From: Acidovorax delafieldii
Lineage (GTDB): Bacteria; Pseudomonadota; Gammaproteobacteria; Burkholderiales; Burkholderiaceae_C
Assembly (NCBI RefSeq): GCF_007993815.1
Contig: NZ_VJWE01000011.1
Span: 434,001 to 498,000, forward strand
Length of the DNA: 64,000 nt
Reading direction: 5' to 3'
Shown here: positions 39,850 through 43,626 of the stretch, one piece after another
How the letters are laid out: every line of letters begins with the position of its first letter
Position numbering within the stretch: position 1 is the stretch's first letter
The notes under the pieces: model-generated
Told to the model about the DNA's origin: nothing
What the model saw: only the letters and a program-made list of their open reading frames with translations
The model's database searches: none
Made by a program: the position numbers and the translations under genes

Positions 39850-40491
39850 CTACCAGCGCAGCAGACGCGGCCCCAGCACAGCCCCCAAAGCAGTCGGTAT
39901 GGCCATGCCCGCCAGATACCACACCGCCAAAAACGGGGTGGCCATCTCGGGGCAATGCAGGGCATACACCAGCGCCCCCAGCGCGCCCGCCAGCAAGCCA
40001 GCGCCCGCTCCTGCCCACGCCAGCCGCGTGGGCGCAGCGCCCTTGAGCGCCCAGAAGCCTCCAACGAACGCCGGGACCGACAGCAAGGCGATATTGAAGG
40101 GACAAGTCCGCCAGGTGCTGCCCAGAATCAGCGGCACACGCTCCGCCGCAGGCACCTGCCACAGAGCCCCCAGGGCCATGGCCCACAGCACCAGCGGCGG
40201 CACCGCCAGCCACAGGGCTGCGAGGCCCAGCGGCATGCCCGGGCGGGCCATGCGGCGCAGCAGCGCCAGGCCAGCGGCTGCCAGGGCGGCCGCAAACACC
40301 AGCTTGCCCCAGAACATGGGCAACGCCATGGTCGCCAGCAGGTCAGGGCGCAGACCGAACAGGGCCAGCATCAGCACCCCGGCACCGGCAATGCCCACGG
40401 CGCTGGCGACAGCAAACCGTCGCTCAATAGCGGCGGGCTGCACCGGCCGGTCATCGGTGGCCAGCAGGTGGATCAATTCATCGGTTTTCAT
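39850..40491 (-). CDS. nrsF: NrsF-type anti-sigma factor (DUF1109)
   Basis: 213 residues with six predicted membrane helices and a short cytoplasmic N-terminus ([19 protein letters not shown]) that would hold the sigma factor. DUF1109 proteins pair with SigF-type ECF sigma factors and release them on metal or redox stress. Three Cys are present, one in a [11 protein letters not shown] loop, in keeping with metal or thiol sensing known for this family. Its start overlaps the end of the sigma gene (ATGA), giving translational coupling. Confidence 0.9.
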
Positions 40492-41033
40492 GCCATTCCC
40501 CTGATCTTGGCGGCCAGGGCCTTGAGCCCCCGGTGCACGCCGACTTTGACGGCCGACTCCGACAACCCCGTGAGGCGCGCCGTCTCGACCACCGACAACC
40601 CTTCCAGCTTCACATACTCAATGGGCAGCCGCTGCTTGTCTGGCAGCGTGCGCAAAAGCTGCCCCAGGTCCCGCCGAGCTTCGGCGGCCTCGCTGTCGCT
40701 GGTGGCAAACAACTCGTCGGCATCGTCCAGCGGGTCGTTGCGGCCCTCCTTCACGGCATGCGAGCGCAGCCAGTCGATGAGCTTGTAGCGCGCAATCGCG
40801 TGCGCCCAGGCCGTCACCGGCATCTCGGGCCGGTAGGTGTGGCGCTGGTTGTGCACGGCCAGCAGCGTCTCCTGCACCAGGTCTTCCACCTCATCGGGCC
40901 GCTGCGCAAGGCGGCGGCGAAGGAAGGCGCGCAGGTGGGCGCTCAGCTCCTTCAAAAAACGCTGGTAAGCGGCTGCATCGGCATCCAGCCCCTGCATCAG
41001 CAAGCCGCGCAAGCGCTCTTCCACTATCTCCAT
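40488..41033 (-). CDS. sigF: ECF sigma factor, SigF type
   Basis: 181 residues: sigma2 region [21 protein letters not shown] and [19 protein letters not shown], sigma4 region [21 protein letters not shown] followed by [17 protein letters not shown]. Start at [10 protein letters not shown]; the 18 further upstream in-frame residues overlap the promoter. The gene is divergent from the bufferin operon and carries a promoter with the same unusual sequence as that operon, so it very likely recognises both. Controlled by the coupled NrsF. Confidence 0.92.
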
Positions 41034-41050
41034 GGTGTCTCCCTGCAAGG

Positions 41051-41078
41051 AATTCGTATGCCGGGGCCAATGGGTTAC
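41051..41078 (-). promoter_or_regulatory. SigF-type promoter of sigF-nrsF
   Basis: On the minus strand: GTAACC (41078-41073), 16-nt spacer, CGAATT (41056-41051), 17 nt before the sigF start codon. The same hexamers with the same spacing occur in the divergent promoter. As I recall, GTAACC-N16-CGAA is the Caulobacter SigF promoter pattern. Confidence 0.85.
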
Positions 41079-41131
41079 AGGCAACACAAAAAATATTTGC
41101 GCAACGCCGCCACGATTTTTTGAGCAGTGCT

Positions 41132-41159
41132 GTAACCCGCCTGCTGCACAGCCCGAATT
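41132..41159 (+). promoter_or_regulatory. SigF-type promoter of the bufferin operon
   Basis: GTAACC (41132-41137), 16-nt spacer, CGAATT (41154-41159). It lies about 86 nt ahead of bufA1, giving a leader of roughly 80 nt. It shares both hexamers and the spacing with the sigF promoter on the other strand. Confidence 0.87.
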
Positions 41160-41245
41160 ACAACGCAGATCGGGCTACTCAATGCGACCTCTGTGCCGCC
41201 ACCCGGTCGGATTCAACCTTTATCCAACCCTCGGAGAACCGTACC

Positions 41246-41539
41246 ATGACCACTCGCACCCTCAGCCTCGGCGCCCTCGCACTTGTTGCCCTGACCTCTG
41301 GCGCCGCCATGGCCCAAACCAACGCCGCCCCCATGGACGGCGCCAAGCCTGCCATGGAGAAGTGCTACGGCGTCTCGATGGCTGGCAAGAACGACTGCGC
41401 TGCAGGTCCCGGCACCACCTGCGCGGGCACGTCCAAGATGGACTACCAGGGCAACGCCTGGAAGTTTGTGCCCGCAGGCACCTGCACCACCATCAAGACG
41501 CCCAAGGGCATGGGCATGCTGACGCCCATGAAGAGCTGA
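41246..41539 (+). CDS. bufA1: Bufferin-1 precursor peptide (DUF2282)
   Basis: 97 residues with a signal peptide (residues 1-23, GAAMA/Q). The mature part has the DUF2282 pattern [15 protein letters not shown] with four Cys at 40, 51, 59 and 80. In bufferins the BufB-BufC enzyme turns some core Cys into 5-thiooxazoles, and the exported peptide binds copper; this chemistry is known for the family and not visible here. The short ATG start at 41246 follows TCGGAGAA and opens directly into the signal peptide; longer upstream frames cross the promoter. bufB begins 2 nt after its stop. A Met-rich tail ([12 protein letters not shown]) is notable. Confidence 0.92.
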
Positions 41540-41541
41540 CC

Positions 41542-42390
41542 ATGGCATCCCCTCTCACCGCCGGCCTGGGTCTCAAGCCCCAGCACTACGACGAGGCGCT
41601 GCGGTGCACTGCCCCCGGCCTGTGGTGGGAGGTGCACCCCGAGAACTACCTGGCCGACGGCGGCCCGCGCCTGGCCTGGCTCGAAGCCATCCGCTCGCGC
41701 CATCCGGTGGCACTGCATGGAGTGTCACTGTCGCTTGCGGCCGATGCACCGCCCGATGCCACCCACCTGGCACGGCTGACCACCCTCGCAAGGCGCGTGG
41801 AGCCCGCCATCATTTCGGAGCACCTGGCCTGGTCCACCTGGCGCGGGCAATACCTGCCCGACCTGTTGCCGTTTCCGCGCACGCACGCGGCACTGAACCG
41901 CATCGCCGGCAACATCGCCCGCACGCAGGACGTGCTGCAGCGCCCCATCGCCATCGAGAACCCCACGCATTACCTGCACATCGACGGCCACGACTGGGCG
42001 GAAACCGATTTTCTGGCCGAGCTGGTGCGGCGCACTGGTTGCACCCTGCTGCTGGACGTGAACAACGTGTACATCAGCGCCAACAACCTGGGATTTAGCG
42101 CGCAAGCCTACCTCGAAGCTTTCCCCCTGCACGCTGTGGCAGAGATCCACCTGGCAGGCCACCATGCCGACCCGGTGCATGGCAATGCTCTGCTGATCGA
42201 TAGCCACGATGCGCCCATCGCGCCAGCGGTGTGGGCGCTGTACGAGCAGGTGATGGCGCGCACCGGCCCCGTGCCCACCCTGATCGAACGCGACGACCAG
42301 TTGCCTACCTTCAATGAACTGCTGGCCGAGCGGGAGCAGGCCCACCGCGCGCTCGCCCATGCACAGCCCCGGGAGGTTGCATGCAGCTGA
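41542..42390 (+). CDS. bufB: Bufferin-modifying enzyme, MNIO family (DUF692)
   Basis: 282 residues, TIM-barrel multinuclear non-haem iron oxidase. The metal-ligand motifs are in order: WEVHPENY (Glu30, His32), LHGVSLS (His59), SEHLAW, AIENPTHY, LLDVNNVY, EIHLAGHH and IERDD. It would oxidise Cys of the BufA1 core to thiooxazole with its partner BufC. The start ATG at 41542 is 2 nt past the bufA1 stop; the long in-frame extension upstream is an artefact. Ten nt overlap with bufC shows tight coupling. Confidence 0.93.
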   Translation: MASPLTAGLGLKPQHYDEALRCTAPGLWWEVHPENYLADGGPRLAWLEAIRSRHPVALHGVSLSLAADAPPDATHLARLTTLARRVEPAIISEHLAWSTWRGQYLPDLLPFPRTHAALNRIAGNIARTQDVLQRPIAIENPTHYLHIDGHDWAETDFLAELVRRTGCTLLLDVNNVYISANNLGFSAQAYLEAFPLHAVAEIHLAGHHADPVHGNALLIDSHDAPIAPAVWALYEQVMARTGPVPTLIERDDQLPTFNELLAEREQAHRALAHAQPREVACS

Positions 42391-43142
42391 GCACCTTTCA
42401 GGATGGCTTCTCTGCCGCGCTGCTCGGCGATGCTACAGATGCACCGTGGCTGTCCGCATTGGAAGCTCAGCCCGGTTTTGCCGTGTACCGCAACACCGTG
42501 CTCAAGGGCTGTATCGATGCGCTGCAGGCCAATTACCCCACGGTGTGCCGGCTGGTGGGCGAAGACTGGTTCCGCGCCGCTGCGGCTGTGTTTGCCCGCG
42601 CGCAGCCGCCGCGTGACGGCCTGCTGGTGGACTATGGCGCGGGGTTTGACAACTTTCTGGCCGGTTTTGCACCGGCCACCGAGCTGCCCTACCTGAGCGC
42701 CGTGGCGCACCTGGACCGCTGCTGGACCGCATGCCATCTGGCGGCAGACGCCACCGCCGTGGACCGCCACTGGCTGGCACAGCAGGCCCCTGACACTTTG
42801 CCCCTGGTGCATCTGCGGCCTCACCCCGCCGCACGCTGGGCTTGGTGTGACGAGCATCCGGCTTATGCCCTGTGGCAGAGCCACCGTGAAGGTCTGCATC
42901 CCAATGAGGCGCTGGAGTGGACGGGCGATGGCGCCTTGCTGACCCGGCCCCATGCCGAAGTGGTGTGGCACCCCTTGTCGCGGGCAGGCACGGCTTTTTT
43001 GGACGCCTGCGCTGATGGCCGCACGCTGGAAGCCGCCGCCACATCGGCCCTGAATGCCGAACCCACCGCCGACTTCGCCGCCCTAATCAGCACATTGCTG
43101 GACGCAGGCGCATTGATACTCACCGAATCACGCACAGGCTGA
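42381..43142 (+). CDS. bufC: Bufferin biosynthesis partner protein (DUF2063)
   Basis: 253 residues with the DUF2063 N-terminal pattern: [38 protein letters not shown] and [13 protein letters not shown]. In MNIO systems this protein binds the precursor peptide and delivers it to BufB. The C-terminal half ([11 protein letters not shown]...[13 protein letters not shown]) is the winged-helix-like peptide-recognition region. Overlaps bufB by 10 nt and precedes the DoxX gene by 10 nt. Confidence 0.9.
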
Positions 43143-43152
43143 GGAGCCCTTC

Positions 43153-43626
43153 ATGACCACCAGCACACACTTCCCTTCGGCCCCTGCCAAAGGCCCACGC
43201 TTGCTCTTGGCGCGCCTGGCCGACACCGCCACCTGGCTCACCCCGCACAGCTTGCTGGCACTGGTCAACCGGGTGGCCATTGCGGGCATCTTCTGGATGT
43301 CGGCACGCACCAAGGTCGAGGGCTGGTTCACCATCTCCGACAGCGCGTATGCGCTGTTCCGCGACGAGTACAAGCTGCCCGTGCTGCCGCCCGAGCTGGC
43401 AGCGCAGATGGCCACCGCGGCAGAGCACCTGTTTCCGGTGCTGCTGGTGCTGGGCCTGTTCACACGTCTGTCGGCCCTGGCGCTGCTGGGCATGACGCTG
43501 ACAATTCAGCTGTTTGTCTACCCGGACGCCTGGCCCACCCACCTGTCATGGGCGGGGCTGATGCTGTACCTGGTGGGGCGCGGTGCAGGCAACGTGTCGC
43601 TGGACCGCGCGTTCGGAGTCCGTTGA
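43153..43626 (+). CDS. DoxX-family membrane protein of the bufferin operon
   Basis: 157 residues, four predicted membrane helices from about residue 38 ([62 protein letters not shown]). DoxX proteins are common members of buf clusters; their job there is not established, with redox or quinone-linked roles proposed. Last gene of the operon. It converges on the thioredoxin gene, with a GTTGAAG/CTTCAAC hairpin (43630-43652) in the junction. Confidence 0.88.

Follow-up and report, generated by a model that had tools for sequence, protein, structure and literature searches.

A bufferin cluster has been described alongside a sigma factor locus of Caulobacter vibrioides/crescentus (CCNA_03362-03366; CC3252-CC3257), in which sigF-nrsF is accompanied by DUF2282, DUF692, DUF2063 and DoxX genes (PMC3511200, PMC8224329). 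The C. crescentus SigF regulon, with its published promoter motif GTAACC-N16-CGAA, is reported to include this cluster type together with yedY/msrP (PMC3511200), and was described as copper-induced, a sigF mutant being copper-sensitive (PMC8224329). The gig genes of Cupriavidus metallidurans (Rmet_4682-4685) likewise place DUF2282, DUF692, DUF2063 and DoxX in one operon (PMC5413113), and gig operons are counted as bufferin clusters (PMC12452194). According to the latter source, only the two central cysteines of the characterised Buf1 peptide are modified, while the outer pair is disulphide-bonded. Here we analysed a 64,000 nucleotide (nt) stretch of Acidovorax delafieldii DNA (contig NZ_VJWE01000011.1, positions 434,001 to 498,000; the window), in which six genes at 39850-43626, sigF-nrsF running divergently from bufA1-bufB-bufC-doxX, very probably constitute a SigF/NrsF-controlled bufferin cluster of the Buf1 type. 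Judged by its genes, the anatomy of the locus is that of the published Buf1 (DUF2282) cluster type, as found at the Caulobacter sigF locus and in the gig operon. The cluster is ordinary, one more bufferin cluster among the thousands reported (PMC12452194), and the finding is sound.

The initial annotation, made from the letters of the window, had placed six genes here and called them a complete bufferin cluster, and both points were borne out. The genes lie at the coordinates assigned to them with every frame open, and the bufA-bufB-bufC order unites a DUF2282 precursor with an MNIO enzyme and a DUF2063 partner (Table 1). The nrsF and sigF frames overlap by 4 nt and those of bufB and bufC by 10 nt, with a gap of 2 nt between bufA1 and bufB. 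Pfam matches above the cut-offs were obtained for NrsF, Sigma70 r2/r4, DUF2282, MbnB_TglH_ChrH, DUF2063 and DoxX, and across the whole genome MNIO, DUF2282 and NrsF each gave a single match. The arrangement goes beyond coincidence, since the same genes recur in 75 related loci, which were fetched via BufB so that the presence of bufB is given: bufC and doxX were found in all 75, bufA in 74 (locus L042 ends at a contig edge and bufA is absent from the piece), sigF in 66 and nrsF in 65. Acidovorax kalamii is a near relative, with a BufB of 97 % identity.

Table 1. Features of the sigF-nrsF-buf locus, in positions of the window
Feature	Product or nature	Position (strand)	Size	Basis or detail
nrsF	anti-sigma factor	39850..40491 (-)	213 amino acids	Pfam NrsF; Cys130 and Cys180
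sigF	extracytoplasmic function (ECF) sigma factor	40488..41033 (-)	181 amino acids from ATG at 41033	Sigma70 r2 and r4; NF009188
sigF-nrsF promoter	putative SigF-type promoter	41053..41078 (-)		GTAACC-N16-CGAA, exact match
bufA1-bufB-bufC-doxX promoter	putative SigF-type promoter	41132..41157 (+)		GTAACC-N16-CGAA, exact match
bufA1	DUF2282 bufferin precursor	41246..41539 (+)	97 amino acids	Pfam DUF2282
Met-rich tail	BufA1 residues 86-97	41501..41536 (+)		family tail with varying Met number
bufB	MNIO maturase	41542..42390 (+)	282 amino acids	MNIO_BufB equivalog; iron ligands as in VcMbnB
bufC	DUF2063-containing BufB partner	42381..43142 (+)	253 amino acids	Pfam DUF2063; predicted fold
doxX	DoxX-family membrane protein	43153..43626 (+)	157 amino acids	Pfam DoxX

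BufA1 matched Pfam DUF2282 with 91.6 bits (cut-off 22.4, E 2.9e-26), and scored 20 bits against NCBIfam BufA2, below the cut-off of 60. The four cysteines noted earlier at residues 40, 51, 59 and 80 were confirmed, as were the tail methionines at 89, 91 and 95, and a predicted Sec-type signal, judged by eye, is inferred to extend to about residue 23. By correspondence with the characterised Buf1 peptide, Cys51 and Cys59 would be the central pair and Cys40 and Cys80 the outer pair. The monoisotopic mass computed for residues 24-97 is 7561.47 Da, and would become 7551.39 Da with two thiooxazoles and one disulphide, less a further 17 for an N-terminal pyroglutamate. A loss of 4 Da per thiooxazole had been anticipated for the modified peptide, which matches the published value, the MNIO enzyme and DUF2063 partner of captophorins being reported to install 5-thiooxazole at -4 Da per Cys (PMC13097082).

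BufB scored 364 bits against NCBIfam MNIO_BufB (cut-off 310). The full set of metal ligands with which it had been credited was found: residues identical to all eight Fe ligands named for VcMbnB (PMC8888699), and to VcMbnB His211 and Asp240 in addition, the ten BufB positions being H59, H94, E139, D172, N175, H203, D220, H222, E249 and D251. The entry 7dz9 was taken as VcMbnB since each of the ten numbered residues agrees with it. A methanobactin cluster was considered and rejected, the MbnB model giving 52 bits vs a cut-off of 325 and the precursor N-terminus being signal-like. BufC had no NCBIfam match. An AlphaFold2 model of BufC, built from 41 sequences with a mean predicted local distance difference test score (pLDDT) of 90.5, matched among PDB folds at E <= 0.001 only TglI in TglHI (8hci, 8hi7) and NGO1945 (3dee), both of which we take to be MNIO partner proteins. 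The resemblance of the model to TglI and NGO1945, together with the Pfam DUF2063 match, upholds the DUF2063 partner fold that had been proposed. A sequence search of the PDB with BufC returned no relative, designed alphaRep chains only.

Control by SigF, also put forward in the initial annotation, is supported by exact promoter motifs before both gene blocks that are kept in related loci. SigF matched NF009188 with 303 bits (cut-off 250) and NrsF matched Pfam NrsF with 244 bits, above its cut-off. The pair has the ECF16-type feature of an ECF sigma factor adjoining an NrsF (DUF1109) membrane anti-sigma factor with Cys130 and Cys180, and conserved cysteines at 131 and 181 are reported for C. 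crescentus NrsF (PMC3511200). The 212-nt spacer between sigF and bufA1 holds two exact GTAACC-N16-CGAA sites, one directed towards each gene block, and these are the sole exact sites in the window. Conservation was assessed through the best-matching site in the 250 nt upstream of each gene, with 250 nt inside bufC as the control. An exact site preceded bufA in 70 of 74 related loci (exceptions L046, L054, L073 and L075) and sigF in 64 of 66 (exceptions L007 and L075), vs 0/74 in the bufC control, where the best match carried 2-5 mismatches in 74/74.

Seven buf operons of Pseudomonas, Burkholderia and Caballeronia (L045, L048, L049, L052, L054, L058 and L074) matched neither sigF nor nrsF in the flanks retrieved, and six of the seven still carried an exact SigF-type site before bufA. 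In the distant cluster L075 the sigF-nrsF matches lie 3' of doxX on the same strand, with no exact SigF-type site.

A further exact site (L077) was located 59 nt ahead of the start codon of msrP, msrPQ lying about 327 kb from the buf locus. The identity of MsrP is firm (NF003767, 490 vs 207 bits), and the msrQ piece, which is cut by the end of the locus, gave 109 bits vs a cut-off of 130. Within the genus msrP is present in 42 of 47 genomes, and the exact site precedes it in every one of the 34 cluster-bearing genomes with msrP, vs 0/42 for the opposite-strand control; a one-sided Fisher test of msrP site against cluster presence gave 0.005, the genomes being related and not independent. This suggests that MsrPQ, which repairs methionine sulfoxide in the periplasm, is also produced in the SigF response. 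The initial annotation had named neither the two promoters at the buf locus nor this probable msrPQ link, nor that modification in the characterised Buf1 is confined to the central cysteines. Msr genes in ECF16 regulons have already been published (PMC8315932), and the link is therefore an extension to a new genus with no new principle. The msrP promoter (L086-L127) is conserved past its core: in nearly all rows that have the site its 5' end reads GGT-GTAACC-TG, and its 3' end is usually GGAACGAACT, a pattern not shared by the buf and sigF sites.

Several observations weigh against this picture. Outside the cluster, an exact site also stands before msrP in five of the eight genus genomes that have msrP without sigF, nrsF and DUF2282. 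The whole genome contains 7 exact motif sites vs 6 in a backwards control. NrsF reached 134 bits against NCBIfam AntiSigF_NrsF, below the cut-off of 300, and DoxX 42 bits against NCBIfam HvfX, below the cut-off of 80. In C. crescentus the induction of yedY is described as only partly SigF-dependent (PMC3511200), and the gig genes of C. metallidurans were reported to be without effect on copper resistance (PMC8224329).

Because the backwards control is nearly equal, the genome-wide motif count was rejected as regulon evidence, and only position and conservation count. The other sites comprise one before a secreted protein without NCBIfam match (L080), one before a branched-chain-type binding protein (L081) and two within coding frames (L082 and L083). 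The L081 site, GTAACCCATAGGTATTCACCACCGAA, about 47 nt before the binding-protein gene, is letter-identical in G000, G002, G008, G010, G017 and G027, among the matches listed. The cluster-less genomes that keep the msrP site (G003, G021, G023, G024 and G046) yielded neither a SigF at E <= 1e-20 nor any match to NrsF. A third exact site is common to G003, G004 and G024, and no sigma gene was found among the open reading frames listed near it in G003 and G024. The retained msrP sites may be remnants or may be read by something else; thus the reader of the site need not be SigF alone. The loci with an exact site upstream of msrP in genomes without SigF, NrsF and DUF2282 matches are L087, L090, L091, L092 and L094.

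For a SigF-controlled bufferin cluster we propose that the anti-sigma factor NrsF, located in the inner membrane and carrying two conserved cysteines, would keep SigF bound until metal or oxidant stress reaches the periplasm, and that release would go through Cys130 and Cys180, as extrapolated from Caulobacter. Freed SigF would read the two divergent GTAACC-N16-CGAA promoters, as their motif and homology imply, giving more SigF and expression of the buf operon. The iron enzyme BufB, with BufC, would turn Cys51 and Cys59 of BufA1 into 5-thiooxazoles before Sec export; a Cys40-Cys80 disulphide would form next and, on the model of Caulobacter Buf1 and of the captophorins, the peptide would bind copper in the periplasm, with DoxX in a supporting role. 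Through the SigF-type promoter before msrPQ, the same response may also yield periplasmic methionine-sulfoxide repair.

This last step could be taken further. The Acidovorax SigF response may amount to one renewable periplasmic device, both copper buffer and oxidant sink, in which MsrPQ repairs Met37, Met45 and Met89 of the bufferin. Precedents are the reported repair of the E. coli copper chaperone CusF by MsrPQ (PMC9302797) and MrpX/YedY in Azospira (PMC4623255), and we offer the idea tentatively, as a rather unlikely one. An operon that answers mainly oxidants such as hypochlorite, or gold, silver, chromate or cadmium, instead of copper, built on a SigF-msrPQ core with the peptide chiefly a methionine/thiol sink, seems to us distinctly improbable. 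It is true that in other ECF16 systems SigF/NrsF, msrPQ and a Met-rich peptide together counter hypochlorite (PMC8315932, PMC4623255), C. crescentus SigF is reported to respond to chromate and cadmium (PMC3511200), and here msrP has a SigF-type site and mature BufA1 (residues 24-97) has 7 Met among its 74 residues. However, the modifying enzymes and the four cysteines are all retained, and a plain methionine sink would need neither. The C. crescentus SigF genes were, moreover, described as not induced by agents generating reactive oxygen (PMC3511200), whereas copper induction and copper sensitivity were shown in Caulobacter (PMC8224329).

The methionine-rich tail of BufA1 had been regarded as an addition of this cluster and a further potential metal site, and here the initial annotation did not hold. 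Tails were surveyed in the best 120 of at least 8000 BufA1 homologues, near relatives therefore, 115 of which fit the core pattern; these 115 have no tail Met in 4 cases, one in 50, two in 42 and three in 19, and the closest relative (L002, A. kalamii) has one. Met37 (115/120), Met45 (109/120) and Met89 (110/114) are conserved, whereas Met91 (14/114) and Met95 (49/114) are variable, with Ser, Ile, Val, Thr or Ala in their place elsewhere. The three-Met tail is thus one frequent form of a tail that the homologues share. That selection has made residues 86-97 a second metal site peculiar to BufA1 is very unlikely: the three methionines in 12 residues, and the return of three-Met tails in 19 of the 115, are set against a tail that holds 0-3 Met across homologues, and on this variation the tail was rejected as a special site.

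Clusters of this kind had also been described as known in few organisms, which stands for experiments but not for genes. DUF2282, NrsF and SigF occur together in 37 of the 47 genus genomes and are all absent from the other 10; DUF2282 was found in 102 of 398 genomes sampled from the phylum, the homologue search returned at least 8000 protein matches, and some Acidovorax homologues are already named "BufA1 family" in public records. Among the 10 cluster-less genomes 8 have trxC. In six of the cluster-less loci (L131, L132, L134, L135, L137 and L138) cca and trxC are separated by 42-176 bp; in L133 the neighbour of trxC is still the GNAT gene, and in L136 about 1 kb separates trxC from a partial cca. 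At L135, from a genome without the cluster, a bufC scrap of 35 codons with 77 % identity persists between trxC and cca (759-863), and loss is therefore shown at this locus. A cca tree, for which 47 of 49 rows offered were kept (41 with the cluster, 6 without), needed 6 changes, 5 of them forced by well-supported branches; the cluster label was no more clumped on it than when shuffled (mean 5.8), and the tree cannot separate gain from loss. Given the bufC scrap, repeated loss is the simpler reading, and the cluster has probably been lost repeatedly between cca and trxC. That it is decaying or unused in A. delafieldii too, as its absence from 10 of 47 genus genomes and the closed-up cca-trxC site in six examined loci might hint, is very unlikely with six open genes, catalytic residues in place and two exact promoters.

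With 37 genomes that carry the whole sigF-nrsF-buf block and 10 that lack it, the genus may be useful as a ready-made test set. Given also the closed-up cca-trxC sites and a motif-bearing msrP promoter, whether copper buffering is linked to methionine repair can be tested directly within one harmless environmental genus.

Compared with the known systems, the Acidovorax locus shares with Caulobacter the GTAACC-N16-CGAA promoter and, where yedY/msrP belongs to the SigF regulon there, has the motif before msrP (PMC3511200); in contrast, Caulobacter is reported to have a second DUF692 operon (CC2905-2907), and the Acidovorax genome gave one MNIO match. The gig operon differs in being defined by its induction by gold, silver and copper. 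Captophorins (fontiphorin, oxazolin and gonophorin) likewise pair an MNIO enzyme with a DUF2063 partner (PMC13097082), but carry EGKCG repeats where the peptide here belongs to the DUF2282 group. Azospira SigF/NrsF-MrpX-YedYZ and Brucella BcrS/AbcS-BcrXQP resemble it in their ECF16 sigma/anti-sigma pairs, which control msrPQ there, and the GTAACC and CGAA elements recur in the BcrS sites (PMC8315932, PMC4623255). As to an MrpX-type arrangement, the neighbour of sigF here is a DUF2282 gene and msrPQ is distant, no search for an MrpX homologue having been made. In Azospira and Brucella the partner is a Met-rich MXKDX-type peptide, whereas in Acidovorax it is a DUF2282 bufferin together with its maturation enzymes.

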